A DNA stretch of 64,000 bases from assembly GCA_950106755.1 (NCBI GenBank), contig OX467083.1, positions 285,501 through 349,500 of the forward strand. The letters are read 5' to 3'. The notes below the pieces were generated by a model that made no database searches, was not told the origin of the DNA, and saw only the letters and a list, made by a program, of their open reading frames with translations. This document shows, one piece after another, positions 3,641 to 64,000 of the stretch; the stretch's first letter is position 1; each line of letters starts with the position of its first letter. This stretch comes from Climacium dendroides (lineage: Eukaryota > Streptophyta > Bryopsida > Hypnales > Climaciaceae). A program made the position numbers and the translations under genes.

Positions 3641-3934
3641 CCCTCTTAGTGACAGCAGTGCACCTGCCCGCAGTGAAAGACGCACCAGTGGTTGATGTGG
3701 CCGATTCGTGTTTTTTTGGACGTCATCTGAAACGTCCTTTATTTTTTTTGACATAGTGAAAAACACGTCCGTTCAAAGTGACATCCCTATATTTCCTGAC
3801 GTCTATTATGACGTTTCAGATGACATCACAAAAAATTGTCCCTGATCTGCGCGTTCATCCAAAAACGTAGTGACGTCAAAAATAACGGTGATGTCACAAC
3901 GTAACGCAGTAAAAAACATGGGTTTCTTATAGTG
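3641..3934. mobile_element. CACTA-type element, right terminal region
   Basis: The block ends at 3934 in GGGTTTCTTATAGTG, the reverse complement of a CACTATAAGAAACCC terminus, where the gypsy gag frame on the minus strand stops abruptly. Inside is an inverted repeat, GACGTCATCTGAAACGTC (3719-3736) against its near-complement at 3810-3827, plus several further GACGT motifs, which fits a CACTA subterminal region. The terminus matches the foldback MITE at 16400-20300. No matching left terminus was found, so the left boundary given is only where the GACGT motifs begin. No transposase is visible. Confidence 0.5.
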
Positions 3935-8800: not shown

Positions 8801-9519
8801 TTGATGGGGAGATCAACCGGATGGTTTCGGCAATAGTATTAGTGTAGTACTGCTCGGATGCAGGTATAGCCTGCGTGTAAGATACAGCCTTAGGTGAAAG
8901 GGGTATCTGAGAGGCTGCTAGCAACTTTTGTGTACGAAAGTATTGCAAGATGTGCCCGAATTCCGGATTGCCGGAATTCCCGTAGAACAGAGTCAAAGCC
9001 CCAGCGCAAGCCCAAGAGAGTACAAGGAAACCCACCCAGTCGACAAGAGGCTCAATGCTCGGTTAAGGTTAGAATGTCGTTGTAGTCCTTGACCGTCCTT
9101 ATGTGACCTAATCCGAAAAGCCTTTCGGATTTGTGAGGAGACAGAACAGGAGGACACTTCCGATCCCTGAAGAGTTAGGATAGTGCTAGTATTAGAGAGA
9201 GAGAAAGAGAGCATGTTTCCGGACACGGTAAGCATCCAGACGGTGGATCTGGCCACTCGTCACCCAAACCCAGGGATCCCGGAAGGGGCACTGAACGGTT
9301 TCCGGATTCTTCCGGAACCCATCTGGCACTAGTGGCCGGATCGGACCTATAGTCCGGAGTAGTCTGACGGAGAGAAAGCGATTGCTTAGATTAGGTTATC
9401 CTATAGATCTGTAAACCTCAAGTCCTCGTGGGAACGATTCCAGAGCGGTTTACTCTAAGTGGGCCTTTGGTGTGAATTAAGGACTAATTGGAGGAATACT
9501 GGTCCGACTAATCGCTACA
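5816..9519 (+). mobile_element. A1: solo-LTR-like A unit inserted in C1
   Basis: The unit begins TGTGGGAATGTGATCCCACA and ends CCGACTAATCGCTACA, flanked by perfect AATGG copies at 5811-5815 and 9520-9524; length is 3704 bp. The interrupted C gene reads through exactly when A1 and one AATGG are removed, confirmed by the uninterrupted sequence at 13918-13960 in C2. There are no direct terminal repeats. TATAAG sites lie at 6129 (upstream of the gene) and 8572 (downstream). Confidence 0.95.
6331..8435 (+). pseudogene. A1 LTR gene, several stops
   Basis: ATG 6331 opens MSSRASRRKLKDLLEDSDEE, then MKVVPEVPTEEDW, NNMGCDGLLEVP and a stop at 6529 where A2 has Trp. The N-terminal domain continues with ILDTTLRTKPDLW and GHQVSDLVNPEYRDV. 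More stops and a frameshift lie between 6790 and 7410; one at about 7414 is CAG in A2. From 7485 to the stop at 8433 it is open for 316 codons: RNAIFRRTDALMAAEQQN, a long coiled coil, INKARLFEANLNAATSWS and a Pro-rich tail ending DPDSKE. Only this downstream part is intact. An independent start there is possible but more likely reflects chance survival. Confidence 0.75.
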
Positions 9520-10996
9520 AATGGCTCTCTGGACGTGTGGTGGATCAGATGAAGAATCCGAAATGGAACTGGATAGCCTGGAACTGGAAGATAAAGGTGA
9601 AAACCCTAGGAAGAGGTCTTTAAAAGAGGAAGAAGAAGAAGAGGAAGAAGAGAAGGTTCCTCTCAACCGAAGGAGGACCAAGCGAACGTCTAGTTTAAGG
9701 GGCTCTCCTTCAATACCTCGCAAGGACAAAGGACTGGAACCAATGGAGCTAGTCGTTCCGAAGAAGCAAGAGCCAGTGGAGGTGGTTAAGCAAAGACCCA
9801 CTCCGCCATCTTAGTTGATGGACCTGACGAGCCCATACAACGACCTAATCCAGATTTTTAGTGCAGTGAGAGTGGATTGGGAGGTGAAGACCACTACGCT
9901 TCGTGAAGTGGCGAACTTGGTGGGAAGTATTGTTGTAGCACAAGAAAGCAAAATCCTTCTCTAAGACTCAATATTTCTTAAAAGAGGCCTTAAAGTGACT
10001 CGAGTATCGTTCCCACAAAGATCGAATTCCTAGGTTCACAATTACCGGAAAATGGTAGAGTGATGGTCACGAAACACAAAACCCCAAGCAAAACAATAGA
10101 CCGGAACTCTACTTGGTATCATTGTTTTCTTGGACAAACACGACCGGATCCCTCCGGTCCAACAATTACTAATACACGTTAGACCGGATCTTCCCGATCT
10201 AACAACACTGACCGGATCTAATCCGGTTTAACACCCACTTGTTTAGCACGCAGATTCTCTAACTGGTTGGTTTCCTACCCCACATCTTTATACTACCCCA
10301 TAATCCTCCCAACACTTCTATTCACATACCTCTAGTAGTTTCCCATATTTATGTTTTACAGACCGTAATCGGGATCCGCGTTTCCACAGATCTAACCTTA
10401 ACCTCTAGTATTCACATCCGGTCCAGATCTCTACTTGTAACCATGTCGAGTTTAACCTCTGAACGAAGAGGGATCTACTAATTGGGATTTAGGAAGGAAG
10501 CTTAACTCCTACCCTCCAATTTTAAAGTGTCAGAAGTTTCACTATGTGATCAAACTTTCAAAAATAAACTTTCAAATCCTACAAATGAGAAAACAAACCG
10601 TCCTCACAACTGGAAAGGAAACGCAGTCGTGTCCAGCAGGTCACGCAAGCCAGTCTAGTTCCTCCTAACCAATGCTACAATGACAGCCTACTGAGTTAGT
10701 CCTAAATCCGGTCTGAACTAGCGGGGAAGAGAAGGGAAACGTGCGCTGCGGAGGCATGCTAATCCTTACTCTTTCCGGAGAGTGGTCCTCAATCCGTACT
10801 CCTTCTGAGTCCATTCCTAGTCCACACTAGAGATTCCTTCTGCCTCCATCCACACGCACTAATTCAATATTGGACCGGATAAACTCAACATCCGAGCACA
10901 CCTTGTATCCATTTACACTCACTTTCTAGTCTGGACTTCCAAAACATGGACAAGTGCCAAGTACACACAACTATGATTTGTTCAATCACTCCAAGA

Positions 10997-12311: not shown

Positions 12312-14182
12312 CTTGTCCTTCGCTTGAACTTCTTCTGCGGATACCGGAAGGGGTGCTGGTGCGAGTTCCGTTTCTGTTTCCGATTTCTGATAAAATTCAC
12401 TCCGTCCTACTCTGATCTAACTGTTCCATTTCCGGGTTTTCGGTTTTCGGTTTCTGATTACTTTTGTTAACACTATTATCTATTCTAGAGTAACCCTATT
12501 CCGGTATCCGGTTCCTAACTACTTACAGTCTATTTTTCTAAAGAAAAACGAAAAAAAATAGGAAATAAGGAGTTCTAATCCCCTTATTTTCCTTCTAAAC
12601 CTAAAAACCGGATTTCCGTGCTCCCACAAGTACTCCAACTAGCGCACTATCGGAAGCCTTGGCGAACTGCATCAGCAATCCTATCGCAACCTAACTTTTT
12701 GATTTTTCTCTCTATCGTGTTTTGAAACACGGAATCCGGATTAAGTAGACCCGGATTGGCACGGAAAGGAAAGGAAAAAACAGGAGTTAGGAAGACTAGA
12801 ACCATAGGCCCTGAATGAACCGGATCATGGAGCGGAACGGATATTGGAAACGAATCTGGTCTAGTCCCATAACCGGAGGAACGGATCCAGGATTTGCGTC
12901 CAAAAAATCAGAAAAAGTAATGATTAGGTTTTCAAGGTACTAAAAAGACTGCTTTAGGTTTTGGCTGTCATTTGCACCTGGGAGCACCATCGTACTTGGC
13001 GCGCTCTCAGTACTTCGTATTTGTGTCTGCAAATTGAGTGTGTTTGTGCAAAATTGTGCAAGGTCTGAGAGTTGTGTAAAGTTGGGTATAAGTGTGTTTG
13101 TTTCCTTTACACGGGCTTAGGGATTAGAGAGGAATTGGTTGCGTGAGCGTGGTTGAGATTGAGAGAGTACCGCGAGAATTGTGTGAGGTTGGCGCATTGA
13201 GCGACTCGGTTGAGACCGAGGAGTGAGTGTGAGGAAACGGGACGTGCGGCTAGAAGAGAAGAGAGGTAGCAATCTAAAATAGAGACGAATGCCGTAGTTA
13301 AAGCGTGGACGAAATCAGGTACAGACAAATGCACACAGGATAGAAATCAGAGTGAAAAAGGTGGCTCCCTTAGAGCCCAGTAGTGAGCGGGAGAGAGTAG
13401 AATTGATGCGCGGGATTCCTGGGGAAACCCTCGGGCTTTCGGAGCGAGGCAATAGTTAGGGAGCTCATCGAAGGAGCCTCTAACCAGTTCGACAACTCTA
13501 TCTGACCGGCTCCGCCTATGTGGACATGAGAGATTTGGAGGAAAGTTTACGACTTGGAGGAAGGTGGCGCGGAACAAGCCAGCCGGAAGGGAGACTTCGT
13601 GCGCGGGAAGTTCAAGGGAGCGGCTAACCCCAAGGACGGATACGCCATCGAAGACTGTGTCAATGCGCGACACCGGCGGCTGCTCGAATTCTTGGTACCG
13701 ATCCTACATCCGAAAAAACCCACCCGGGTGACTTCCACAATCGGAAATGCGACCTTTGGAGCCCTGAGCGGAGAGAAGCGGATGGATTGGGCAGCCTACA
13801 TTCAAACGTTGGTGAATGTTTTGGTCTCGAATGTAGAAAAGAGTAGGGCTACTCCGATATGCCCCTACCTTTTCCACCTGTACAAGAATCAGAGTCTCCT
13901 GACTTCAAAGGAAAACAAGGAATGGAGAGCTTAAATGGCCCTCCGGACGTGTGGTGAATCGGATGAAGAATTCGAGACGGAACCGGATAGCCCGGAACCG
14001 GAGGATAAGGGTGAAAACCCTAAAAAGAGGAAGTGAACAGAGGAGGAAGAGGAGGAAGAAGACACTCCTCTCAACCGAAGGAGGATCAAAAGGACGCCTA
14101 GTCTAAGGGGTTCTCCTTCAGGGCTTTGGAAGGACAAGGGAACGGAACCAGTGGAGCCGGTCGTCCCAAAGAAGCAGGAGCT

Positions 14183-15843
14183 TGTGAGTGAATTTCACTG
14201 TGAGGCAAAATGCATCCACAAGGTTGGGCCAGGAGGAGTGTATGGGACCTCTAACTAACGCCTCCAAACAATGGATTTTATCAAGTTTTTTATCCAGTTT
14301 TCATGTGTATGAGGTTAGGTGGGAAAAAGGTAGCTTGACCAACTCCCTCAAAGGTCCAATGACACTCTCTAAATATTCTAAAACATCACCTAAGAAGTTG
14401 TAGCATCCTCCTAGGTCAAAATGGCACTTAAAAACCTCCACTTAGGGCTCAAAATGGGTAAAATTGGCATCTCAAATTTATTCCAGCACATCTTCTTCTA
14501 CCCAATTGCCTTAAAACCTCCTTAGATTCTTTCCCTCACCAACCTTGTGAATTAGGGTATGTTCCTAGATGAAAGTTGAGCTCAAAAGTGCAATTGAGAG
14601 CTCCAAGGGCTAGATTTGAGCCCTAATTGAGAAATTCCAGCACACATTAATCCCATCCAAAACCTTCAACCCCACTCTCTTTCCACCTTCTCTTCTTTTA
14701 TATGTCTCTTAAATCTTAAGTGAGTGCTTCTACATTCACCCCAATATGTCCATAAAGCTCACCACCCACATAATCCAAAAACAACAACCAATTCCATAAA
14801 ATTTGCAATCAAAATTGCACTTCAACCAAGTACAAACATTGAGTGAACATCACCTCAGTCCCATAGCAGACCAGCGGCCACTAAAACGGCCATTGCCATC
14901 TCTATACTTGTCCAATTGGCTTGAGAATAGTCTCCCTGGAAAGCTACCTTGACCCTTCACTTCCCCTCCAAAATTCAGCTTCATACTTGCTGTAGAACTC
15001 TCGCTAGATGCCTACAAAGTTGGTGCTCTCCTTTCGCCGCGGCAGCAGACCTCCTCGCACTAAATCGGTTGCCATGATCTCGTCCAAGCTCCGTTGGGGA
15101 CGAGCCATAGCTTGTTGGAAAGCAAACTTCCACGCGCTTCATCCCTCCAAATTTCAGCCTCAAATTCGTTGTAGAACTCCCGCTGGAGGCCCGCAAAGTT
15201 GGAGCTCTTCCCTAGCCGCGGCAGCATACTTCATCTCCCCCATTTCTCCTCAATCTTCACTTTCCCCCCCCAAGGTGGAAATCTACTCGACAAATTGGCT
15301 CTAATCCTATCCTAACTCCTTGCCATCACTTCCTAACATCCTTCTTTTCAAAATCTCACACACACAAGAGAGAGAGAGAGAGAGAAAAAAAAACTCCTAA
15401 CCCTAATTCGACCTTTACCTACTTTCCAACTAATTCACACTCCTAATTACCTTCATCCATCCTTAATTTACTAAAAAATACCTTTTAATTATTATTTTTA
15501 CCTAAAATAGTACTCTTATCACTATGTTAGTGCCTTCCTAGTAGTTATATGTTTGATGGCTTCTTTTGTGCATTTCATATTTCTTCTTTTTTGTTGGTTT
15601 TCAATTTATATTTAGCTCTATTTTCAACTTCTAATCTTGGTTTTCAATTCCCTTTTTGTATTTCTTATCTTTTAAATATTTTTAGTTTGTAATGTTGAAA
15701 TAGATTCCTATCTAATGTATTAAAAGCCTTTTAACTAATGGTTATAGTTTAATCTAATGAACTAACACTTTTGAACTTGAAATCTCACACATAATTTTTA
15801 TATTTTCCATCATCTTAGAGGTGAACCAATACAGTGGTTCACA
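14183..15843. mobile_element. H: non-coding solo-LTR-like insertion
   Basis: The block starts TGTGAGTGAATTTCAC and ends GTGGTTCACA, with GAGCT (14178-14182) and GAGCC (15844-15848) as a 5-bp duplication with one change. Its removal restores the C gene. It has no LTR gene and a base composition unlike units A to D. Inside are a diverged ~176-bp duplication (CCGCGGCAGCA at about 15037 and 15214), a (GA)n tract at 15367-15384 and a perfect terminal hairpin at 15821-15842. Orientation is unknown. A solo LTR of another family is the best fit. Confidence 0.6.
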
Positions 15844-16859
15844 GAGCCGGTGGAAGTGGTCAAGCCAAGACCCGTTCCATCGTCTCAGTTGATGGACCTG
15901 ACGGGCCCATACAACGACCTAATCCGGATTCTCAGTGTAGTGAGAGCAAATTGGGAGGTAAAGACCACGACACTTCGAGAGGTGGTGGATTTGGTGGGAA
16001 TCGCTCTAACGAGTTCCCTACCAGAAGCCGTGGCGAACTGCATCAGCAATCTGGACGAAGTTAAGGAGTTGGAAGATAGATTGTTGAAGCAGAACATCGA
16101 CCAGTGAGAGACAGATGAGCAGGTGGTCCGATTGAGAGGAGAGATCCAAAGTTACCGAAAGGACTTGGATTCTAGTCGCGACCAAGTGAAGGCCGCAATG
16201 TCTCTGCAAGAGGAGACCAGAGCTGCGATCAACCGGATGACAGCAATGGTAGGGGCATCCAGTGACATAATGGCGAAGGCCAAGTTCTTTGATGAGGGGG
16301 TACATAAGGATCAGAAACCTTCAGGTACCCGCATCACTCGCATCTTGGCTGACTTTGTCAGAGAATTAGAAGAGGCCATGAAGGAATTCTGGATGGACGC
16401 ACTAGAAGAAACCCGCGTTTTAGGTGACGTTTTGTAATTTTTTCAGACGGATTTTAAGTGACGTCGGAAAAAACAACTTGTGTTTTTCTGTGTCTAATAT
16501 AACATCCAGAGGTTATATTAGACACAAAAAAACACAAGTTGTTTTTTCCGACGTCACCTAAAATCCGTCTGAAAATGTGGGAATGCGATCCTACATGCTA
16601 GACCCATAATACTAGCATAGGACTGAAAAAATTCAAAAATTGTCTCCTTCAGAGGAAAAGTTTTTGAGTTCTCCTAGGAAGTTAGGGCAAATTAGGAAAA
16701 CCGGATTTCCGGATCCGGAAAAATTTCATTAGGGCTAAAAACCTAAAATCCGGAACCCTAGAAAGTTCCGGAAATCGGATGACGGCGCCGGCCCTAAAAA
16801 CCGGATCCGTACTAGGGATAGGGTTTTGCCGCCAAAACTTGTCCCGTACATCGGGCCAA

Positions 16860-16865
16860 TATAAG
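16860..16865 (+). promoter_or_regulatory. TATA box for the A2 LTR gene
   Basis: TATAAG followed by AGGGG lies about 200 bp upstream of the A2 start codon. The same TATAAGAGG element is at 6129 in A1, and TATAAGAAA variants occur in A5 and A7. The distance leaves a ~170-nt leader. Confidence 0.5.
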
Positions 16866-17062
16866 AGGGGAACTGTAGCCGGCCGCGGGCACACTTATCT
16901 TCTTTCTTTTGTTCTTCCGTCGACGTATTCCGTTTTCCTCGCTTTGTTAGAATTCCGGTAGACTGAGGGACTGTATGAGTTGCAATCGTGCAGGGGTTAC
17001 CGGAGTGAAAGTTGTAAGCAGAGATTTAGGGAGAGATTGTGTGAGGATTGTTCGTGAACACA

Positions 17063-19160
17063 ATGGCTTCTAGGGCAAGCCGGCGGAAGTTGAAGGACTT
17101 GCTTGAGGATTCGGAGGACGAGGCACCAGCACCGGCACCTCGACCAAGGACCATCCCGGTGATGAAGGTGGTTCCGGAGGTTCCGACGGAAGAGGACCGG
17201 TTGGCGCACCTACGGGAGCATTTCTACAACATGGGGTGTGACGGACTCCTAGAAGTGCCGTGGGGGATTCGAGAGGAGAGTCTGGTCTCGGACATACTTC
17301 GTCCGGAAGGTGGTATCTTGGATACCACCATTCGGGCGAAGCCAGACCTGTGGACGGTAAACACTTGGAGGGTCGTCTACAAGTTCCGGGAGGCGCTGGA
17401 CAAGGTCATGGAGAAGAACCAAGAGGTGATGGAGGGCGAATTCCGGGCGCCCGCCAACCCGAAGGAAGGTCACCAGGTTTCCGACTTGGTGAATCCGGAG
17501 TACCGGGATGTGATAGCGTTTCTCAACCCTATCCTCCATCCCACCAAGCCGCGGCGAGTAGTAGCGAAAGTGGCCTCCACCATCTTGGGGAGCCTCCAGG
17601 GAAAGATGATGATGGACTAAGCAGCCATCATACATGAGTTAGTCGGAGACCTGGTACGTGCCCTCCGGTCCGGAAAGAAGAGTCAGAGTCCTCTTCCGGC
17701 ATATTTGTCTCATTTGTACGCCCACCACTCTCTGCTCAAGGCGAACGAGGAGAGTGCGTATCAAGACCTAGTCCAACTCTAGCAGTACAGAGGAGAGGAG
17801 CCCTCGCCTTGAGACGGACTGAATGAGGAAGACACAAAAGAACAGGGTCTCTCCGCTAAAGAAGAGGAAAAGGCGGAATAGGACGCCGCCGGTAAGTCCG
17901 TCAGAGGAACCTCCCACACCGGAACCACAAGAGGAGGTTTAGGAGGTAAAGACGGAGACCGAACCTGTTCCGAAGGAAGTCCAACCATCCATGCAACTGG
18001 TTGGGCCGGTACGTCCGCACACCGTCGCCACTCAGGCCGAGGCCGGACCCTCCCGGACCCGGATGATAGAGGTGGAGGAGAGGGACCGGACCACCATGCG
18101 ATTGGGAGGGTCACCCCTAGAAGACATCCAGGAGATGGCTCAGCATCTAGTGTGGCGGGCAGACGATCTCACCCAGATCTGCAAGAACTATGATGGAGCC
18201 CTCAAACGAGTGTGCTGGAAGATGGCGCTAACCGACCGGAACGCCATTTTCCGGAGGACGGATGCATTGGTGGCAGCGGAGCAGCAGAACGGCCTCCTCA
18301 TAAAAGAACGGAAGAATTTGGTGACGGAGCTGGGGACGTTGCGCATAGAAAACCGGACGTTGCGAGACCAAGTCCGGAACTCGGAATCCCGCTGTGTGAA
18401 TTTAGAGAGCACCCTCCGCACAGCTCAGGAGACGGCCCGGCTTACAGAAGAAGACCATCGCCGACAGATAGCGCCATTGTGCCAAAGTGTAGTTCAGCTC
18501 CGGAGCTCTCTGGATGTGCCGGCGGATTATATCAACAAGGCCCAGCTGTTTGAAACTAACCTCGATGCAGCCGCCAGCTCAAGCCGGGTTCCTATCGTCA
18601 AATGCTTACTAGAGCAGGCAAGACGAATGGATACATCCTGGGCCGCGATGAGGGAGATGATGGAGTACTTTATTTCCACGGAGTCGGATCCGGCACCTCA
18701 ATCTCCCCCGTCAACACAGACTTTGGTGGTTCCGGAAAGCAACAATTCGGAACCTATGGTTACGGAGGTCTCACTGGTGGTACTGGTGAATCCGGAACTT
18801 TCACCACCAGCCGGAAGGCCAGAAGGAGTGGACTGGGGAGCAGTGGTACCTCCGGGAAGTGAAGACCTACTGCCGGTGACTCCGACCATTGACCTGACAA
18901 GTGCTTCTCCGGAAGTTCACGCCGAATGAACGGTGCAGTCTTCTCCGCATCATAAGAAGATCTAGAAGGATGCTCGGGGGAGTCCAGACATTCAGGTAGT
19001 CGGGACCCGGAGTGTAGACAGGGACACCAATATTGTGGAAGTCCAAAGATGGGGCCAAAGGGGTCCGAATCTGTTTTCTCCGGAGAGTAGCCGGAAAGAG
19101 ATAAAGCTGGATCTTCTAAAGGACTATGTTCTTCCCAAAGATCCGGATTCCAAAGAATAG
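17063..19160 (+). pseudogene. A2 LTR gene, best A-family copy
   Basis: ATG 17063 gives MASRASRRKLKDLLEDSEDE. The frame is open to 17618 (186 codons): MKVVPEVPTEEDRLAHL, NMGCDGLLEVPWGIREE, ILDTTIRAKPDLWTVNTWRV, EGHQVSDLVNPEYRDVIAFL and ILGSLQGKMMMD, then a stop where relatives have Trp. SPLPAYLSHLYAHHSLL follows, with two further stops in the linker, one TAG being CAG in A1. From 17991 it is open for 312 codons: RNAIFRRTDALVAAEQQN, a long coiled coil and INKAQLFETNLDAAASSS. One stop at 18927 precedes the conserved end DPDSKE at 19160. Full length is near 700 codons. No enzymatic motif recognised. Confidence 0.8.
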
Positions 19161-19296
19161 TATGCAGTAGTGTAGTATAGCGGCAATACCGGAGTCCGGT
19201 AGTCAAAGTCGAAAAAATAGGATCTGGGATTTTCCGGAAATCTAGCGGACTAATAGGAATGTTTTTGTAGGATTTTTAAGATGACATTAGTCTTAG

Positions 19297-19302
19297 TATA
19301 AG
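19297..19302 (+). promoter_or_regulatory. Second TATA-like site in the A2 LTR
   Basis: TATAAG within CTTAGTATAAGTAGG, 137 bp after the LTR gene, is conserved in A1 (8572) and in inverted form in A3 and A4 (near 25430 and 23005). Such conservation in otherwise drifting sequence fits a core promoter for the genomic RNA. Confidence 0.4.
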
Positions 19303-22027
19303 TAGGACTTTTAATGGCCTTTCTGGTCATTTACAGCCATCTCATAGTTTCAGCATTGTATCTTTTTCTGAGCTTAATTCTAAAGTGTTTGGAGTATCCA
19401 ATCTCTTATCTTTATTATGTACGGTATATGTTTGTAAGAGGTGTGGGTCCGTTCTTGCGTTTCCGGAACTAAGAACTTACCTTGTGTGGCAAGAGTTGAT
19501 TTTGTGAGAATATCCGAATGTATTAACTTCAGGGGGAGATCAACCGGATGGTTCCGGCAGTAGAGTTAGTGTAGTACTGCTCGGATGCCGGTATAGCCTG
19601 CATGTAGGATACAGCCTTAGGTGAAAGGGGTATATGAGAGACTGCTAGCAACTTTCGTGTGCGGAAGTATTGCCGGACGTGCCCGAATTCCGGATTGCCA
19701 GAATTCCCCGTAGAACAGAGTCAAGCCTCGGCACAAGCCCAAGAAAGTACAGGAAAAAACACCCGGTCGACAGGAGGCTCAGTGTTCGGTTAAAGGTTAG
19801 AATGTCGTTGTAGTTCTTGATCATCCCTGTGTGACCTAATCCGGATCTTTCCGGATTTGTGAGGCGACGGAACAGGAGGACACTTCTGGTCCCTGAAGAG
19901 TTAGGTTCGTGTTAGTGTAAGAGAGAGAGAGAGAGTGAAAGAGAGCGTGTTTCCGGACACGGTAAGTATCCGGACGGTGGATCTGGCCACTCGTCATCCA
20001 AACCCAGGGATCCCGGAAGGGACACTGAACGGTTTCCGGATTCTTCCGGAACCCATCCAGCACTAGAGTCCGGACCGGACCTAAAGTCCGGAATAGTCTA
20101 ACGGAGAGAAAAGTGAATGTTTAGATTAGAATAAGCCTATAAAACTGTAATCCACAAGTCCTCGTGGGAACGATTTCGGAGCGGTTTACTCTAAGAAGGC
20201 CTTTGGTGTGAATTAAGGGCTAACTGGAGGAATACTGGTCCGACTAATCGCTACAAAAAAAATTACAAAACGTCACCTAAAATGCGGGTTTCTTCTAGTG
20301 ACACAAAGAGATTGGAGGACACCGTCTGGAAGTTCCAGAGTGGGTTAGTCTCTTTATCCGGGATTTCGATCCCGAATGAGTTCGATGAGGTAGAGATATT
20401 GGAGGGGAAGTTTGAAATCCCAATATTAAAGGAGAAGGAAGGCGGAAGGACTTCCACTTCAGAGGCCGCATGGACGATGATAGAGGTGACTTCCCCTATA
20501 GAACTGGAACGAGTTCCGGAAGGGGGAGATAAGAGCAGGAATTTGAGTGAACTCTCCCCCATAGCTACTCCAGATAGTGGTGGACCCCCTCAGGAGGGAT
20601 AGATAGTTAGGAGTTAGAAGGTAGGAAATTTTGTTAGACCGGACCTTATTCCGGAAAGTTAGGAAAAGTTCAGATCCGAAAATCTCGGCAGGATCAGTGC
20701 CGGATTTCTGGGGAGACCTTTTTGTAAATTCTGTATATAATTTGAGTTTCAAGACTGAGACGAGGAGTTTTTCCTTCTTGCATATGCTTTCTCTTGTGTG
20801 TTGTCTATTGTTTTCCTTGTCTTCCCAAAGATTGGCCGGATAAGGGAGGGAGAGATTGAGTATAGATGAGCAGATTGTGAGAGGAGCTTCTCTCCTTGTT
20901 GTCTTCTTGTGATTGCAGGTGCATGTGGACAGGTTGTAAGTATTGGGAGTGAGTCAAGACACCTTAGTAGATTTAGAGTTCATTATTCCAGGTGAGATAG
21001 CTAGTGCTAGGCTAGATAGCAAGAGAAAGGATTCTCAAACTATGCTAGAGCTACCAGATGGAATGTCTGGGTTAGCCTTCGAACACTTGAGAGGTCTCAC
21101 TATCTGAAGAAGTAAATGGAAGAACGCTAGACTGTGTTGGCACGGGCAGACGCACTTGTAGTCACTTTAGTTTCGCACGGATTTTAGAAGATAGTAAGGT
21201 CGTTGTAGTTGGTGAGGATCGTACGAGGGTTTTTTGTGTGACTTACAGACTGGGATTACTTCTAGTTTGCTGTGAAAAATCAAACCAGATCCTGTTAGAA
21301 TAGGAGGATAGATTAGCTAAGTGAAGCTTCCATCACTATAAAGATCGGAAGGAGAGGAGCGCCTACCTTTTTGAGAACAAGTGACAGACCCCTCTAAAGT
21401 GCCAACAGAGGTTAAGCAAAACTAGAATAGAAACCGAGGAAAGGGAGTGCTCGGATAAAGTAGTACAAGATCCGGTCGGGAGTGTGAGTTCCGATTTGGT
21501 TCTTGTGGTTGTCAATCGATTTTGATTCGGGTAAGTATTAGTCTGGACCGGATCCATCTATAGAAAGAGGAGGAGATTATCCAGTATTTGGAGAAAAGGA
21601 TGAAGAGTGATAAAGAAGAGTAATTGAATTGAGAAACTTTCCTCAAATCATCTAGTAACATGAAACACTTCACAGAGTCTCTTGGGTTCGATCTTTAGAG
21701 TCACTTTGTTATGCTTTAAAGAGGTTTTTGTGAGCATAATAGGGAATTTCACTTACCCTATGCTGCGATAGCTATCTTCTAATTACTCTATGCTAGGAAG
21801 GCAAACACCCGGAGTTCTTCTTAACGCACTTTGATTCCGTCTTTCCCAAGCTACAACACTCCGGGTTGTGATTCTTTCCTTCTTGCTCTCACTAGTTCCT
21901 CACCTCATACAGAAACGAGTTTCTACTTCTTCTATTCCACTTCTGGACTGAATAGACTCTTCTCTGTCACCCTGGTTGTGTGACCAGTTCAGACCTTGAG
22001 TTATCTTATACTTCCACGATTATCAAG

Positions 22028-22045
22028 TCCCCGGCAGCAGCACCA
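22028..22045 (-). other. Primer-binding site, tRNA-Asp type
   Basis: On the minus strand this reads TGGTGCTGCTGCCGGGGA, which matches 15 of 18 positions of the tRNA-Asp primer-binding site used by many plant Ty3/gypsy elements; two differences are C-to-T. It lies 13 nt (22046-22058) downstream of the ACA end of unit A4 and upstream of the gag start. Its position shows that A4 is the 5' LTR of this retrotransposon. Confidence 0.8.
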
Positions 22046-25000
22046 GAAATCTTCCTTATGTAGTGATTAATCGGATCAGTATTCCTCCAGTTAGCCCTTA
22101 ATTCCTACTAAAGACCAACTTAGAATAAACCGCTTTGGAATCGTTCCCACGAGGACTCAAGGCTCACGGATCTAGGCTAACTTGGTCTAAGCGTTTCTTT
22201 TCTCTCCTATTTCCAATCCAGACCAAAGGTCCGATTCGGCTATTAGTGCCGGATGGGTTCTGGATGGGTTCCGAAAAAGTTCGGAAACCGTTCAGTTGCC
22301 CATTCTAGGATCCCTGGGTTTAAATGACAAGTGGCCAGATCCACCGTCCGGATATTTACCGTGTCCGGAAACACTGACTCTCTCTCCCACTTAACCTCTA
22401 ATACTATTGCTAACCTAACTTCAGGGACCAGAAATATCCTACTATTCCGTCACCTCATAAATCCGGAAGGCTTACCGGACCAAGTCACGTAGGGACGGTC
22501 AAGGACTACAACGACATTCTAGTACTAACCCAACATTGAGCCTCCCGTCAACCCGATGGACATCCTCGCACTTTCTTGGGTGTTACACCGAGGCTTTGAC
22601 TCCGTCTATGGGGTGAATCCCGGTATTCCAGTATTTAGATTACGTCTTACAAAACTCCCGTACCTGGAAGCTATTCCGACGTTCACACATCCTTGTACAT
22701 GAGATGGTATCCTCCCCTCAAGCTATACCGGCATCCAACGAGGTAGGACACTAACACTACCTCTGGAATAATCTGTCCGATCTCCTCATCAATCTAGTGC
22801 AAAAAGTAACCATACACACCTCGACACTTGCTAACCAAGGTAAGTTCTCAGCATCCGGAAATACACGAATGGACTTCCACATATGACATGATGCACCAAG
22901 TAGATAAGGGAATGGAATGCCTCCAAACACTTTGTATTAAGCTCAGAGGTACAACTTGAAAATCATGGTGTAAAGGACCACAATGGTCCATCAAAATCCA
23001 ACTTATACAAAACCTATCATCATCTCAAAATCACACGAAACACTCCTACTGCCCCGCTAGATTTCCGGTAATCCTCAGATCCTACATTTCCGGAGTAGTG
23101 AACGGACTCCAGCACCATTACAAGAATATACAAAACTACATCTCATTCTTTGGAGGAATTACCTCCTCTAATAAACTCTGGTAACTCCTCTTCCGGCTGC
23201 TCCCCAGAGGAAAAACACCAAAGACTCCAGCTACCAGAATAGCCCCTCCAAGACTTGGACCTATAGCGGTACCGGCATCCCTGTCTACACCCGGGGATCC
23301 GGCTACTAGCGTTCCCGGACTTCTCCATGAGTCTCTCCGAGTAAATTTTAGGCGGGGAGAGTACTGAAGGGGTTGAGTTATCCATCTGTCTGGAGGGGTT
23401 CTCGTAAGGTCTATGATTAGGTTCTCCTGGAGTAGATCCTCATTCCCCCAGGTACAATGGTACCCCAATCCAATCTTGATCCCTCGAGTGGAGGTGATAG
23501 CTCCGGAATAGGAGGTACCACCGGTGAAACCTCTGCAACAGCTGTTTCCAGAGCCACTTCTGGAACAACCTCCAGAACCTGCAATGTTTAGGTGGGAGAG
23601 GAACGAGAAGGGTCTACCAGATTCAGCTCTGCGGGTGCCAAACGCACCACTAAGTCCCGCATCTCTGCTCGCGAAGCGTCCATCCTCCTCGCCTACTGGA
23701 GCAAATATTTCACGATCGGCACCCGGTTTGAGCTTAAGGATACGTCGAAGTTGGCTTCAAATAGTTGCGCCTTGTTGATGCAATCCGCCGGTACCTCCAG
23801 GGATTTCTGGAGTTGGATAACACCTCGACTCAATGCCTCGGTCTACCGGCAGTGTTCTTTCTCCGCAATTTTGGCCTTCTCTTAGGCCATCCATAGCTTG
23901 TTCTCCAGCCGAGCGCACGTAGACTCCAACCCTTCGGCCCGTTCTCGTATACCTCAGTTCTCTATCCAGAGTGCGCCTAGCTTTATCACCATCTTCTTCT
24001 GGTCTTGAATTAGCAAATCGTTCTACTTTTCCGCCGTTACCAAAGCGTCCGTCCTCCGGAAAATGGCGTTCCGGTCGATTAGCGCCATCTTTCGGCACAC
24101 CCGTCTGAAGGTCTCCTCATAATTGTAGAGAATCTTCATGATATCGTTAGCCCGCCACACGATGTGCTGGGCCATCTTTGTAATATCCTCGTAGGGCGAC
24201 CCCCCCAACCTTTCTTCCTCCTCTTCCTCCGGTGGATTGGCCCGAGGGTGACCGGCTTCTGTCCGATTTGGCACGTTCTCCGGATTTCTCGCCTGGTTGG
24301 TCCATTCCAGAGCTTCTCTTGTCTAGTGCGCCTCTTCAATTCGCTCCGGAACGGAAGAAATCCCCGTCCCCGATGATCTCGCCATTCGCCTCGTCCGTCT
24401 CTTTAGAGGAATAGATTGCTCCTCTTCTTCCGTCTCCTCGTCATCCGGTCCGTCCCGATGAGAGGGTTCCTCCCCACCATACTATAGTGATTAGTCGGAC
24501 TAATATTCCTCTAGTTAGCCCTTAATTCTCACTAAAGGCCCACTTAGAGTAAACCGCTCCAGAATCGTTCCCACGAGGACTTGAGGCTTACAGATTCATA
24601 GGCTAACTCAATCTAAGCTTTCACTTTCTCTCCTACTTACTAATCCGGACTAGAGGTCCGCTTCCAACCACTAGTGCCGGATGGCTTCTGGACAAATCCG
24701 GAAACCGTTCAGTTGCCCCTTTCGAGATCCCTAGATTTAGGTGACGAGTGGCCAGATCCACCGTCCGGATGTTTACCATGTCCGGAAACACACACACTCT
24801 CTCTCTCTATCTCTCAACCTCTAATACTAGTGCTAAATTAACTCTTTAGGGACCGGAAGTATCCTACTATTCCGTCACCTCACAGATCCGGAATGCTTAC
24901 CGGACCAGGTCACGCAAGGATGGTCAAGGACTACAACGACATTCTAGCATTACCCTAACACCGAGCCTCCCGTCGACCGGATGGATCTCCTCGCACTCTC

Positions 25001-27160
25001 TTGGGCGTTGCGTCGGGGCTTTGACTCCGTCTATGGGGAATTCCGGCATGCGGAATTCGAGCACATCTTGCAAACTCTCGTTCACAGAAGCCTCTCAAAT
25101 ACCCTTACACCTAAGGCCGTATCCTACCCTCAAGCTATACCGACATCCAGGCGGTAGTACACTAACACTACTGTCGGAACAATCCGGCCAATCTCTCCAT
25201 CAAGCCAGTGACGTCTGAGAACCACTCACAAAGTCAACTCTTGCTACTCAAGGTAAGTTCTCAGCATCCGAAAAAGGCACGAATGGACCCACACACCCCA
25301 CAAGCATGCACCGAATACAAAAAGTAAGAGAATGGAAACCTCCAAACACTTGAATTAAGCTCAAAAAGATACAAGCTGAAAATAATGGAACGGATGTAAA
25401 TGACCACAAAGGTCCATCAAAACCTAACTTATACTAAAACTAACATCATCCTAAAAATCCCACAAAACATTCCTACTAGTCCACTAGATTTCTAGTAATC
25501 TACTAGATATTATTTTTCTGGCTTTGACGGCCGAACTCCGGTACTATCATAAAACTGCCCACTATTCCTCTGCATCCTTATCCGTGGGAGGAGTAAGGTC
25601 TTTCAACAAGTCGAGGTTAATCTGCTTCCAGCTACTCCCTGGAGAAAACAAATCAGGGCCCCTTGCTCCCCATCTTGGGACTCCCATGATATTGGTGTCC
25701 CTGTCTACACTTCGGATTCCGATTATCGGAACTTCCGGACTTCCTCGAGAATCCTTCTGGGTCTGTTTGTGACGGGAAGAAGACTGTACCGACTGGATTC
25801 CTCGAGTCTCCGGAGGAGTACTTGTAAGGTCAATGATTGAGGTCATCGGAAGGAGGTCCTCACTACCTTTGGGTACCACAGCACTCCAATCCATTCCTTC
25901 TGGTCTCCCCGGCGGTGGTGAAAGTTCCGGAATAGACGGTACCACTAGTAACACTCTTGTAACAACAGGTTCCGGAACATCACCTTTCGGAATCGTCAAG
26001 GTTTGTCTGGAAAAGGGAGGAGGAGTTACCAGATCTGACTCTGCGGGGGCCAAATACTCCATCATATCCCGCATCTCAGCCCGAGAGGGGTCCATCCATC
26101 TTGCTTGCTTCAGTAAACACTTGACAATGGGCACCCAACTCGAGCTGGCGGTTGCGTCGAAGTTAGCCTCGAACAACCGGGCTTTGTTGATATGGTCCGT
26201 CGGCACTTCCAAGGAACTCCGGAGTCGGATCACACCCTGGCACAGTGCCTCTATCTGCTGGCGGTGATCCTCTCCTATGACCCTGGCTATCTCTTAGGCT
26301 GTGTGTAGATCACTCTCCAATCTAATGCACTTAGATTCTAACTCTTGGACTCGTTCCATCAAGGTCCGTTTCTCCACTCGTAAAGCGCCCAACTCCGTCA
26401 CCAACTGCTTTTGTTCCTCTATCAAAAAGGCGTTTTGTTTCTCCGCCGCCACCAATGCGTCCATCCTCCAGAAGATGGCTTTCCGGTCGGTCAGTGCCAT
26501 CTTCCGACACACCCGCTTAAGGGTCTCCTCATAGTTGTAGAGAACCTTCATGAGATCGTCCGCCCGCCATACGATGTGTTGGGCCATTTCTGCAATATCT
26601 TCTATAGGCAATCCTCCTAATTGGAGTTTAGTTCTCTCTCCCTCCTCTGCCTCCGTAAGTCTGGTCCAGAAGGGTCCGGCCTCGGTCTGAGTGGGACCAA
26701 CTTGCGGCTGCACAGGTCCGACTTCTTGTGGAAAAGATCTGGCTTCTTGCAGAGCAGATCCGGTTTCTTCCTTCCAGTCCAGAACTTCCTCCTTTAGTGA
26801 CTCCGGCGCAGGAGGATCCTCCGTTGGCCTTGCCAGTGGAGTCCTCTGCCGCCGGGCCTTTTTCGCCAGAGGAGTGGTGTGACAACTCATACTTTTGATT
26901 TTTTTTCGATTACCTTTTCAGTGGAACGGAAACTAGAAATAGGTATCCGGATCCAGCTAAAGGGAGGAAGATAAATCAAAAATAGTCACAAGAGAACCTT
27001 ACAGAATTAATCCGGTTCTAGGTAGAAGCGGACCGGATTGGATTTCCAACCGGAAGGGAATTCTAACCGGATTCTCCTTGACCGGATTGGAGAGAACCGG
27101 ATGACAAGGACCGGACCAGATGTCCGACCTGTCATAATGACCAGTCTAGGGCATCAGGAC

Positions 27161-27168
27161 TATATAAG
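27161..27168 (+). promoter_or_regulatory. TATA box for the B1 LTR gene
   Basis: TATATAAG lies about 315 bp upstream of the B1 start codon and is conserved at 61283-61290 in B2. A roughly 300-nt leader would follow. Its position fits a core promoter for the LTR gene. Confidence 0.5.
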
Positions 27169-27475
27169 GCCTGACCCTATCCATTTTCAGGTCTCTGGTT
27201 TTCACGTGTTGTCGTTTCCTGTCTTAGCGCCTGAGCTTTTCCGTTTACGGCGGCGAGGAGCGGAGAGTACGAGAGGGCCAGGTAGTGAGTAAGAGGTGTG
27301 AGACGGAGAGATCGCCTCCGAGCACGTGTGGGTGAGACTTGAGCGCGAGCGGATACGGAACGGTGAGAGGCTCAGAGTGTGAGAGCGTAAGGAGGTTGGT
27401 TTGCAGGTGGAGCGTAAAATCAGAGTGTGAGCGCTCCCTCGTTAAAAGAGAGTGAATGCGAGTAGAGCCGCCCTC

Positions 27476-29072
27476 ATGCCGCAGCTGAACCGGAAGAGAC
27501 CAGGCTCTAGCACCCCACCCCCGAGTGAAGTGAAGTTGAAAAAGGTAGTTTCGGTCATGCCAACCAAGGAACCGGAACAGGGAGGACTTAGCATCCATGG
27601 GTTGTCAGGGATTAGCCTTGAAACCTTGGGGTTTCAAGGATGAGAGGATGATTAGGGAGCTTCTGGGTGGCGTATCGAACGAGTTCGATAACACCCTGAG
27701 AGGGAATCCGGTTCAGTGGACCGAGGATTTGTAGCGAGCCATCTACAGATTTTGGACGGGAGGACTCGGGCTTGCCAACCGGAAGGATGATTACATCCAG
27801 GGCAAGTTCGGAAGTGTCGTGAATTCGAAGGATGGCTACACAGTAGAAGACTGTATCAATGATCGGGAGCGTCGCTTGCTACAGTTCCTCGTTCCGGTCT
27901 TACATCCGGAAAAGCCGCCTAGGGTAACCATCACCTTGGATAACACAATCTTCAAAGCGCTGTGCGGAAACCGGAAAGTAGACTGGGGCCGGGTCTTCTT
28001 CGATCTGGTGTCCCAGCTTACTACAAGAGTGGGGAAAAGTAGGGCTACCCCACTGTGCCCTTACGTGTACCACCTCTACCAGCAACAGGAACTGCTGATG
28101 GAAGTGGAGATGAAGGTTTGGAAGGCCCAGGAGCGGACCATGAAGTATGGTGAATCCGAGTCTGACCAGGAAGCGGATTCCGGGAACGAAACCGAGGAGG
28201 AGGAGGAAGAAGAGGAAGAGGAGGAACCGCAGTTCACCTCCAAGAGGCAGAAGACCACACCGACCCGGAATCGAAGAACGCCTCCGGTTCAAGCCCGGCT
28301 GCGCAAGAAGGAGGCTCCAACCAGACCGGATATGCCATCCGGATCGGGAACCAGAGATCCATTCGACGAGTTGGTTGGGATACTCTGCGGAATCCGGGCG
28401 GATTGGGAAATCAAGAAGCGGACGATCGGGGAGATCGCGGAATTGATTGGAGCGGATCCGGACAATCAGCTACCACTCCGGGTAGCTGAGAGTGTCATCA
28501 ATCCGGATGAGCTCCGGAAGATGAAGGCAGAAAGCAAGCGGCAGCACGATGAGGTTGACACCCTCAAAGCCGAGCTTTTTGCCTTGCTCGAGAACGCCAC
28601 CGCGACAAGAGAGATGGCAGAGGAAATGAAGAAGCTAGCCGCGGAGGTGAAGGATGTGCTTGGAGGACCCGAAGCCGCGATCACCAAGGCGCGCCTATTT
28701 GAAGAGGAGGTGCACAAGGAAAAGAAGATATCCGGAACAAGGGTGGTGCACATCCTCACCGATTTTGAGGAGCAGATGGAGAAGCTCTTGTCCAAGGCAC
28801 AGGAGTCAGCGGACCGGATCGTGGAGAGCAGCCAGAAGTTGATAGAGATTCCAGTCCAACTCTCTGAACTTTCACTTCCGGACTTGTTTCCGGAAGAGGA
28901 AGCTCAGGAACCGGGGAAGAACAAGACACTCCAATCCAACAGGGCACATAAGAAGACGCCCTCGACCGGACCGCAGTCGATCGACTTAGACTCCCCGGAA
29001 ACTGATGAAGATCGCCCGGCTCCACCTCCGGATGGGGAATGGAACCGGAATCTAACTGAAGTGTTCGAGTAG
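27476..29072 (+). pseudogene. B1 LTR gene, near-intact
   Basis: The start is ATG 27476 (MPQLNRKRPGSSTPPPSE). Compared with B2, B1 has a 10-bp deletion near 27577 that shifts the frame, and one TGG-to-TAG stop near 27731; from 27819 to 29069 it is open for 417 codons. That part shows GYTVEDCINDRERRLLQFLV, the TLDNTIFKAL block, VDWGRVFFDL, PLCPYVYHLYQQQ, an acidic run at about 28190-28230, a basic patch, then a helical region with ITKARLFEEEVHKEKKISG and a Pro/Ser-rich end. The final TAG is CAG in B2, where the frame runs about 50 codons further. Layout equals the A, C and D genes. I see no enzyme motif; a gag-like or RNA-binding structural role is possible. Confidence 0.75.
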
Positions 29073-29278
29073 TTGGAGAGACTTGACGAGAGTCCTACCA
29101 TCGGATCTCAAGTATACGAGGCAGAATAGGAAGTGTTGTAGAAGTAGGAGTTATAAAGCAGGAACCGGATTGATAGAATATGAACCGGAATAGAATCCGG
29201 TTAGGATAAGGTAGAACCGGATTGTTAGCGCCTTCAGAAGCGGAAATCGTGTATTCACTTTTTGCTTTTTGCTTTTTG

Positions 29279-29286
29279 TATATAAA
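29279..29286 (+). promoter_or_regulatory. Second TATA box in the B1 LTR
   Basis: TATATAAA lies about 200 bp after the LTR gene, conserved in B2 at 63385-63392. It could start the full-length retrotransposon RNA, leaving the upstream TATA for the LTR gene. Inferred from position and conservation only. Confidence 0.45.
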
Positions 29287-32200
29287 ACAGTCTCTGAGCT
29301 GGAGATTGGGAGAGTTCTTTTGGCACTTCTTTGTGTACTTTCCATTTATCCGGCTTTTGTGTGTTTTTCCCGAGTGTTGGCAGGAGTACACGGAGTTGGA
29401 GTAAGGGGGTATGTACGGGTGTGTTGGTAGAGTTCTTACTTTGATGTGTCTTTTCAGTTCTAAGTACATGTGAGTGGGTCATAAAGAGTTAGGAGTGGAT
29501 TCCAGATCCTCAGCATCTGCAGAAGCTTTGCATTCCGAGTAAGAAAGTCGTTGATTAGACTAGGCGGATAGGGAGGGATTCCTTAACTGCGCTAGAACTC
29601 CTGGGTGGAAAATCCAGTTGAGTGTCCTGACTCCTGTGAGGTCTTGCCACTATTGTTGGTGAACGGAAGAACTTTGTAGAGGTTGGAACGGACGGGTGCA
29701 CTTGTAGCCACCTAACTTTGTACGGAACGGATTCAGCATCAAGGTCGTTGTAGTATGAGAGAATCGTACGGGAGGTCTTTGTGTGACCTGTGATCCGGAT
29801 TGCTGTGAAGGACCAAACCGGATTCGGATTAGTTAGGGAATTAGCGGATAGGAGAGTGGGTCTTCAGCCACTATAAGTCACGGAAGGAGTGGTGGGCCTA
29901 CCACTTTCAAAAGCAAGTGGCGAACCCTTTGATGGTAAAACAGAGGCAAAACTAAACCGGGTTTAGGAAGGCTGGACCGGAACGGATCCCCCCAGGAGGA
30001 CATTTAGGACCGGAAGTTGGAGGGTCCAGAATTGGGAAGTTAGTCAATAAACCGGAAAACTAGTGAAATCGGAATTAGTATAAAAGCTAGTCGTAGTCTT
30101 CCGGTGGGTTTTTGGATGTTCCGGTTTCAGAGGTAGAACCGGAAGTTAGAATTTAAGGGTTAATTGGGTGTAGCTCCTTGTTAGGGTTAGCTACTTCACA
30201 GGATCTCGTGGGTTCGATTTGTAGGGTCATTTTGTTATGCTCTAGAGTGATTTTTGTGAGTATAATAGGAAAATTGCTTCCTCTGTGCTGCGACAAGTGG
30301 GCGGCTCCTCATTATCCGTCTCCTCATCATCCGATCCTTCCCAGGGAGAAGGTTCTTCTCCTCCGTACTTTTGGAGCTGAACCAACTCCTAATAGGCAAT
30401 CTCCTCGTTTGTCTTGAATAGAGAGTGGTAGAAATACAGGTGGGAGATATAAGCCGGAAGAGGGCTCCCACCCTTCTTCCCTTGCCGGAAGGAATGCACA
30501 CGGTCTCTTATCAATTCGTGGATGACGGATGCCCAATCCATCATCAGTTTACCTTGAAGACTCCCTAGGATGGCGGAAGCCACCTTGGCTACCACTCGCC
30601 TTGGCTTGGTCGGGTGAAGGATAGGGTTGAGAAACGCTACCACATCCCGAGACTCCGAATTCACCAAGTTGGAAACCTGGTGACCATCCTTCAGGTTGGC
30701 CTCCACCCGAAATTCGCCCTCCATGCACTCTCCATGACCTTGTCCGGCGCCATCCAGAACTTGTAGACAGCCCTCCACTCGTTGGTCGTCCACAGTTCTA
30801 GCTTTGTCCGGAGAGTGGTATCCAAAATACCGCTTTCCGGACGAAGCAAGTCTGACACTAAACTCTCCTCTCGGATGCCCTAGGGAACATCCATCAAACC
30901 CTCACACCCCATGTTGGTGAGGTTCTGTCGTAGGCGCTCCAACCGGACCTCATCGGTTGGAATTTTTGGCACCACTCGCATTACTGGAATTGTCCTCGGC
31001 CAGGGCGGTGGCGGTGGCATGGCATCGTCTGAGTCCTCTGGCTCCTCCCTCAGTTTACGCTGGCTCGCCCTAGAAGACATCACGCTCACAAGAAAACCTC
31101 GCACAATCTCTCCCTACCCCTCTTGCTCACAAAGATTCACTCCGGAATCCCCTACACGATCGCAACTCACACAGTCCCTCAGTCTACCGAAAATTTGTAA
31201 GAGCTGGAAAGGCGGAAAACGCAGATGTAAGAGAATAAGAAAGCAATCGTGCCTTCCGTCGGCTACAATTCTCTTTTTATACTGGACGGACGGACGGTCG
31301 GATGAAAGTACGGGATAGGTTTTGGCGGCAAAAACCTAACCCTAGTACGGATCCAGTTTCCAGCTTTTAGGGCCGGCACCGTCATCCGATTTTCAAAACT
31401 TTCTAAGGATCCAGAATTAGTTTTTTTTTTACACCTAATGGAATTTTTCCGGATCCGGAGATCCGGTATAACTGCATTTTTCTAATTTCCTATGAGAACT
31501 CAAAAACTTTCTTCTTTAAGGGAATAGTTTTTGAGATTTCCCGTCAAATGCTAGTGTTTTGGGTCTAGCATGTGGGATCACATTCCCACACATACTGCTG
31601 GAGCTGAACCAGCTTCGCATAGGTCGTCTCCTCATTTTCCTTGAGCAAGGAATGGTAGGCGTACAAGTGGGAGACATAAGCCGGAAGGGGGCTCCCACCT
31701 TTCTTCCCCTTCCGGAGAGAATGTACAAGGTCCTCCACCACATCGAAGATAATGAACGCCCAGTCCACCATCATCTTCCCTTGGAGGCTTCCCAAGATGA
31801 TGGAGGTTATCTTGGCCACCACCCGCTTCGGCTTGGTTGGGTGGAAGATAGGATTAAGAAATGCTACCACATCCCGGGATTCTTGTCTTATTAGATCCGA
31901 AACCTGGTAACCCTCCTTTGGATTTGCTGCTATTTGGAACTCATCCTCCATGTACTCCGGTTTCTTCTCCATCACTTTGACCGCCGCCACCCAGAACCGA
32001 TAGACGGCTCCCCACTCGTCCACTGTCTATTGCTCCAGCTTCGCACGAAGGGTGGTATCCAAAATACCGCTCTCTGGCCGCAGTAGATCTGCCACCAAGC
32101 TCTCCTCCCGGATGCCCCAAGGGACATCCATTAATCCCATGCACCCCATGTTAGTGAGATTCTTTTGGAGGCGATCCATCCGGACCTCGTCAGTCAGGAT

Positions 32201-32864
32201 TTCCGGCACCACTCGCAGCACTGGAATCGCCTTCATCCGCGGTGGCGGCGCCGGAGCTGGTTCCTCCAACTCCTCCGGTTCCTCTCTCAACCTGCGCCGC
32301 ATCGCCCTGGAAGTCATGGCGCACACAAGGAACCTCGCACAATCTCTCCCTAGCTCTCTTACTCACAGAAGATCACTCTAGAGCCCACCTGCACGATCGC
32401 AACTCACACAGTCTTTCAATCTACCGGAAGTTCCAAGAGTTGGAAAGAAGAGAACGGAAAGCAAGGTAAATGCAAAGAAGCAAGAAAGCAACTGTGCCAT
32501 CTACCGGCTACAGTCCCTTTTTTATATTGGTCCAGACAAATGGATGATCGGACGGATGGATGGAAGTCCGGGAGAGATTTCGGCAGAAAGCCTAACCCTT
32601 GTACGGCTTGCAGCTCCGATTTTTAGGGCCGACGCCGTCATCCGGTTTTTGGAACTTTTTAGGGTTCCAGAATTAAGTTTTTTTACGCCTAATAGGATAT
32701 CTCCGGATCCAGAGTTCCGGTATTTCCTAAATCCTCCTAATCCCCTATTAGACTTCAAAACTTTCCTATTTAAAGGAATAAATTTTAAATTTTCCCAACT
32801 AATGCTAGTTTCTTGTGTCTAACATGTGGAATCACACTCCCACAACAAAGCTTTAAATAAAAAG

Positions 32865-63900: not shown

Positions 63901-64000
63901 CGGATTGCCATCCGGATTGCTGTGAAGGACCAAACTAGATTCGGGTTAGTTAGGGGATTAGCGGATAGGAGAGTGGGTCTTCAGTCACTATAAGTCACGG
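60999..64000 (+). mobile_element. B2: B LTR, runs off the window
   Basis: It starts TGTGACGACTCATAT after GTAGA (60994-60998) and follows B1 closely, including the 5' foldback, TATATAAG at 61283, the LTR gene and the second TATATAAA at 63385. By comparison with B1 about 420 bp are missing beyond the right edge. Confidence 0.9.
61570..63237 (+). pseudogene. B2 LTR gene, several CAG-to-TAG stops
   Basis: ATG 61570 gives MPRLNRKRTDSSTPPPSEVK and lacks the 10-bp deletion of B1, so it shows the proper N-terminus: LRDDLASIGCQGLVLKPWGF and ELMGGVSNEFDNTLRG. Stops at 61819, 61903, 62881 and 62941 are all TAG where B1 has CAG. Between 61924 and 62880 it is open: GYAVEDCIDDRECRLLQLLV, NTIFGALCGNRRVDWGRIFF, PLCPYVYHLYQQQKLL, a Glu run, IRADWEIKKRTIGEIAHLIG and ITKARLFEEEVHKEKKISG. 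It ends at 63237. Together B1 and B2 define a gene of about 550 codons. No enzyme motif. Confidence 0.8.

Follow-up and report, generated by a model that had tools for sequence, protein, structure and literature searches.

The sag gene of the retrovirus mouse mammary tumour virus (MMTV) sits in U3, and Ogre-type plant elements carry an extra ORF upstream of gag. MMTV sag and its endogenous copies encode their protein in the long terminal repeat (LTR) and, in the available part of the source, are described as under purifying selection apart from some sites with positive selection (PMC11998498). The extra ORFs of the plant Ogre/Tat/Athila (OTA) superclade are characterised by where they lie and how they are oriented with respect to gag-pol, and none is placed in the LTR in the sections available (PMC6317226). 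ORF0 of the rice elements Retrosat2, RIRE3 and RIRE8, compared here by description, resembles the ORF treated below in accompanying LTRs over 3 kb and lying upstream of gag-pol, but in the accessible part of the account it is put upstream of the gag-pol ORF and not assigned to the LTR (PMC3485330). The aORFs of Grande, RIRE2, Retand, SIRE and others are conserved and of unknown function; according to the available excerpt they are internal ORFs, most of them located between pol and the 3′ LTR, in contrast to the LTR position of the present ORF (PMC7264820). Among the papers listed by a full-text literature search, with subscription papers mostly outside its scope, MMTV is the example of a gene encoded in an LTR, and none is from a plant.

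Family A of Climacium dendroides (Bryopsida) includes units of ∼3.7 kb with TG..CA ends that carry a sense ORF, as established by self-comparison and end inspection of the window, i.e. the whole 64,000-nt stretch of DNA analysed here (Table 1). The TATA box of the LTR lies 200-225 nt ahead of the ORF start, which by inference puts the ORF in R/U5 rather than in U3, and the MMTV-type layout, with the gene in U3 and expression from the 3′ LTR, does not apply. The parallel with MMTV drawn in an earlier, sequence-only reading of this DNA is therefore valid for a gene within an LTR but not for its layout. What this plant Ty3/gypsy family shares with the retroviral gene is an accessory gene in a retroelement LTR, hence present in each LTR copy (PMC11998498, available part). 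With OTA elements it shares the tRNA-Asp-type primer-binding site (PBS), long LTRs, frequent extra ORFs and a 5-bp target-site duplication (TSD), as listed in the available sections of PMC6317226. The PBS type and the lack of room for a chromodomain make OTA a candidate placement: at locus L072 the pol frame stops ∼40 nt before the 3′ LTR, and the 94-residue pol end of this one element gives no chromodomain match at E ≤ 0.1. These ∼40 nt also leave no room for an env-like ORF between pol and the polypurine tract (PPT); in Athila, part of the members have an extra ORF (ORF-1) between pol and the 3′ LTR. For the additional RNaseH (aRH) that Ogre/Retand elements of the Tat clade have between RH and IN, the frame spacing was considered: in the element at C38:13.19 Mb, the last position of the RT-RH frame is L039:8560, and IN opens at 8728.

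Table 1. Features of the 64,000-nt window (positions from the first letter of the window)
Feature	Position	Strand	Remarks
Family A solo LTR (TGTGGG...GCTACA)	5816..9519	+	TSD AATGG/AATGG
TATA box TATAAG of solo LTR 5816-9519	6128..6133	+	
LTR gene of solo LTR 5816-9519, ATG to TAG	6331..8435	+	several stops and one frameshift
Second plain A-type LTR copy	16576..20255	+	flanks GAAAA/AAAAA, 4/5 bases alike
LTR gene of copy 16576-20255	17063..19160	+	open pieces 17063-17617, 17943-18926, 18966-19157
5′ LTR of A4 element	22059..32844	-	two parts, 32844-31593 and 24484-22059, nested units between
LTR gene, first part, A4 5′ LTR	31593..32317	-	ATG at 32317; continues 24484-about 23139
Solo A-type LTR inside ORF of A4 5′ LTR	24485..31590	-	TSD GTATG/GTATG
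Family B LTR-like unit	26879..30296	+	TGTGACAACTC...GCTGCGACA (end reads GCGACA), flanks AGTGG/AGTGG; related sense ORF
ORF of family B unit 26879-30296	27735..29072	+	445 codons open stop to stop; coding-type substitution pattern
Second family B unit	61000..64000	+	cut by window end; ORF 61906-62880
Family C unit, third related ORF	12684..21768	+	interrupted by LTR 16576-20255; sits in leader of A4 element
Second family C copy	4542..9928, as far as traced	+	host of solo LTR insertion 5816-9519
PBS, tRNA-Asp type, TGGTGCTGCTGCCGGGGA	22028..22045 (22045-22028)	-	3 mismatches, all transitions
gag remnant, A4 strand	3799..4458	-	tblastn to gag of related elements: 4458-4222 (82%), 4182-3799 (59%)

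The sequence-only reading had described solo LTRs flanked by 5-bp duplications and, in A4, a 5′ LTR of ∼3.7 kb mostly occupied by a sense gene of ∼700 codons. The duplications are exact for AATGG and GTATG in the window, as for CCATC in an element elsewhere, while the flanks of the copy 16576-20255 agree in just four of five bases. The insertion at 5816-9519 has an empty-site paralogue within the window, 4544-5815 resembling 12684-13938 at 82% and 9519-9773 resembling 13933-14181 at 80%. A4 is indeed a 5′ LTR, not one plain unit but a nest that holds a solo LTR and a family B unit. The nested solo LTR, whose final bases are TATA instead of TACA, is itself split by the 3.4-kb family B unit, and its ORF lies in the pieces 31080-30296 and 26876-about 25562 (minus strand). 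The gene is in sense orientation, with a length of ∼680 codons, but fills about 55% of the unit, and all its copies in the window carry stops or frameshifts. Several of these stops (6529, 6829 and others) correspond, by eye, to TGG tryptophan codons in other copies, as decay through C-to-T changes would produce.

A-type LTR starts (TGTGGGA) are also seen within ORFs of other A-type LTRs, in the window (31590, 58744 and 60008, clustering near A 1239-1290) and at L054 and L063, so that a preference of family A LTRs for insertion into their own family is possible. ORFs that belong to this protein family but are more distant occur at L041:7425-9077, L041:4279-4827 (minus strand), L057:3-590 (minus strand) and window 53170-53829; the genome holds at least three types of this LTR-ORF protein family, perhaps four or more. 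A separate frame at 45180-46241 (minus strand) is ethylene-receptor-like, with ETR1_N and GAF above the Pfam cut-off, and is probably a host gene or a fragment of one; it marks the host as a plant.

The junction on which the reading of A4 was built has been confirmed. On the minus strand the LTR ends in ...ATTAATCACTACA (CACTACA), with its last base at 22059, and 13 nt separate it from the PBS, scored against an 18-nt tRNA-Asp-type sequence as reference. In a chance control at one locus, a match with at most 4 mismatches (best in 75 nt) arose in 0.05% of 2000 shuffles. The gypsy gag frame reported on the same strand is also present, although broken and ∼17.6 kb from the LTR and PBS because other elements intervene.

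Genome-wide, the idea of a retrotransposon group with an LTR gene upstream of gag gains support, and the opposite possibility, that A units never flank gag-pol, is contradicted, by junctions at both ends of the internal region. A search with the LTR end, PBS and leader gave 42 rows from 40 scored among 863 candidates; 8 of these rows match the LTR end alone. The tRNA-Asp-type PBS (18 nt, at most 4 mismatches) is found in 32 of 32 junction loci (30 plus two later ones), as retrieved by a query that itself includes the LTR-end/PBS junction; the gap between LTR end and PBS is 8-15 nt in the 30 loci that this figure covers. In a search with the pol end, PPT and LTR start, all 40 scored matches cross the border into the first base of family A. 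After the PBS of the C38:13.19 Mb element follow gag, PR, RT-RNaseH and IN, with IN after RT. Its RVT_1 and RT_RNaseH matches exceed the Pfam cut-off, rve is slightly under it, gag pieces match Ty3_capsid and zf-CCHC weakly and under the cut-off, and PR gives no match in the Pfam scan; gag and PR are assigned here by motif. The internal region measures about 5.3-6 kb: 5,313 bp in C16:552027-562556, of which the ends alone were read, and about 5,970 bp at C38:13.19 Mb, excluding a nested antisense A unit (L039:2589-6139). The C16 element has the TSD CCATC at its outer ends with PBS and PPT inside; it is inserted into the RT of another copy. The A unit is thus very probably the LTR of a plant Ty3/gypsy element that carries an accessory gene, as first cistron in R/U5, copied into both LTRs.

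The ORF is common on both sides of the internal region. Among 20 loci at 3′ junctions, 15 match A unbroken from base 1 to at least 1187, including the ORF start (∼515); the ORF body is missing in two (L047, L049), A 327-1914 and with it the first part of the ORF in one (L065), another is cut at 778 by a new nested LTR start (L063), and the last matches A in pieces (L062). Among 30 loci at 5′ junctions, which include A4 of the window (L009) and 12 unclassifiable ones, 15 match back to A 2324 or beyond, so that the final 290 nt or more of the ORF run without a break into the LTR end, and two are without the ORF (L022, L017). A-type LTRs on both flanks, the arrangement to be searched for according to the sequence-only reading, are seen at C40:1.881 Mb. 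There, a full ORF-bearing 5′ LTR (C40:1881118-1884825) is followed by PBS, gag, PR and IN, the RT stretch being outside the sequence read. A CACTA-like insert interrupts its pol end, with L073 matching query bases 1-150 at 97%; the match picks up at C40:1911489 from query base 147 and runs through the PPT into the start of an ORF-bearing 3′ LTR. This is one element with the ORF on both flanks of gag, PR and IN. Its two ORF starts are 92% alike and up to 94% like other copies; being no closer to each other than to these, they make LTR exchange between elements conceivable. A second candidate, from coordinates alone, pairs C40:2273188-2277165 with 2300938-2302479. CACTA-like inserts (CACTATAAGAAA...) are observed within family A elements at C40:1897709-1911488 (nearly 14 kb), L017 and L019.

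Short ORF-less LTRs of about 1.6-1.7 kb exist as well, as both LTRs of C38:13.19 Mb and as the 5′ LTR of C16:0.55 Mb; at C38:28.88 Mb the ORF is absent from both LTRs within the stretch read. The ORF is therefore common in the family A LTR, not universal. In C16:552027-562556, a 5′ LTR of 1584 bp without the ORF is paired with a 3′ LTR of 3633 bp with it; the two are 96.1% alike over 1081 columns after the ORF and 84.8% over 283 columns of U3, and the expectation of alike LTRs fails in this element, the sole one compared end to end. Textbook reverse transcription does not yield an ORF-less 5′ LTR and an ORF-bearing 3′ LTR in one insertion, and the pair could be due to a switch between co-packaged templates or to gene conversion at a later time. 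At C4:3.03 Mb the 3′ LTR is whole and the outer flanks differ, while the 5′ LTR lacks the same part as that of C16, A 334 to A 2648, which spans approximately the expected transcription start to just past the ORF stop. In its place both have a separate middle section, and these two sections agree at 80% of 171 columns, so that the ORF-less LTRs are at least partly a lineage of their own. In the two C38 elements, each deletion is common to both LTRs, which suggests copying after loss of the ORF and fits a supply of the protein in trans.

These copies give substance to a different reading, in which the true LTR is short (∼1.6 kb, made up of U3 with its TATA box and the segment that follows the ORF). 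Some copies would have picked up the ORF as a cassette and spread mostly as solo or 3′ LTRs, and the ORF-bearing form would be secondary or a non-autonomous subfamily. The ORF-less LTRs of both C38 elements and the 5′ LTRs of C16 and C4 do stand with PBS, PPT and gag-pol, and the gap shared by C16 and C4 ends near the ORF boundaries, with related middles. Weighing against it are the ORF sequence in three-quarters of the 3′ LTRs and half of the 5′ loci, the ORF-bearing 5′ LTR before PBS, gag, PR and IN at C40:1.881 Mb, and the differing breakpoints of the two C38 elements, which resemble deletions and not an original form. The sequence-only reading would have given way to short true LTRs inside the A unit; short LTRs are real, so that this outcome is borne out in part. 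The A unit in its full length, however, also forms a terminal repeat, bounded by TG..CA and a TSD. We consider a short original LTR rather unlikely.

At L072, 681 codons lie in one frame, with stops between two open pieces; an unbroken ORF is absent among the copies read, the best having 450 open codons and then a separate open piece of 177. Across 35 A-unit pieces compared with L072, mismatch at codon positions 1/2/3 is.198/.125/.394 in the ORF and flat (.175/.189/.181) in the rest of the LTR. Five pieces of family B give.107/.086/.165 in the ORF versus.107/.108/.105 outside it; comparison values are.097/.065/.249 for IN and.083/.080/.163 for gag. A TATAA[AG] box is present in 31 of 31 aligned LTR starts, and the ATG is kept in all 29 ORF-bearing aligned copies at the distance given above. 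In a public protein set, 144 related proteins are found at E ≤ 0.001, with 28-38% identity among the best 120 of the 144. Judged by its substitution pattern, the LTR ORF is a real gene, changing like coding sequence. The fold model predicts a globular domain (residues 41-200, for the most part with pLDDT above 90), an acidic linker of low confidence and then a long coiled coil. The protein most likely helps the life cycle of the element in trans, for example as a particle- or RNA-associated helper.

The same protein might instead be distantly derived from one of the extra proteins known in this superclade (Ogre plant mobile domain, Athila ORF-1 or Retand Transposase_28), moved into the LTR. 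The order along the RNA would be as for the extra ORF of Ogre, upstream of gag. These proteins are named in the available part of PMC6317226. Yet the 17 members scanned give no match to the corresponding Pfam families at E ≤ 1, Athila included, and the model, with a query not confined to the globular part, matches no fold or solved structure. A very distant kinship is compatible with these results; the origin from a known extra protein is unlikely.

Two other readings fare far worse. That the A units are separate elements or a spread host gene, beside gypsy sequence by accident, is very improbable: most of the best 40 matches do stop at the LTR end or a few bases from it, with the internal region absent, but this reading is contradicted by the PBS at its short spacing and the pol-end/PPT immediately before the first base at many separate loci, by the 5-bp TSDs, and by the C16 insertion with PBS and PPT inside its outer TSD. 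A chance or relic frame in a long LTR, suggested by the stops or frameshifts in all copies read, is hardly credible, being contradicted by the third-position excess in the ORFs of families A and B, which the rest of the LTRs lacks, the conserved ATG and the related proteins.

For the LTR gene as we read it, a mechanism can be outlined. Transcription would start ∼30 nt after the TATA box, and the ORF, lying in R/U5 after the cap and before the PBS, would thus be the first cistron of the genomic RNA. The minus-strand strong-stop DNA copied from the PBS back to the cap would cover ∼3.3 kb, the ORF among them, so that reverse transcription would put the gene into both LTRs. For gag to be translated, reinitiation, splicing or a different start would be required. 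Every 3′ LTR and solo LTR would retain promoter and ORF, allowing the protein to be made without gag-pol, and ORF-less elements could be supplied with it in trans. A likely origin would be that the PBS and the border of the LTR moved beyond an ORF once located upstream of gag, as in Ogre. We propose tentatively, and as a possibility somewhat short of even, that in a whole group of plant Ty3/gypsy elements, at least families A and B and probably C, a pre-gag accessory gene crossed the PBS into R/U5 and has since been copied twice per insertion and preserved when elements recombine to solo LTRs, these solo LTRs acting as promoter-driven genes that supply ORF-less partners in trans.

LTRs generally count as regulatory sequence. 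A protein gene that selection maintains within the LTRs of two or more families widens what a solo LTR can be, a surviving gene and not a scar, and in family A a single repeat left behind still has the layout of a small gene, promoter box included. The suggestion that this group is possibly undescribed agrees with the literature search, which is not proof of it. The finding raises the questions of how gag is translated behind a first cistron of 680 codons, how strong-stop DNA is made over 3 kb, whether ORF-less elements live on solo-LTR protein, and how one TSD-flanked insertion comes to have two different LTRs. LTR genes would be overlooked or wrongly named by annotation pipelines that take LTRs as non-coding or enter ORFs of this kind as host genes.
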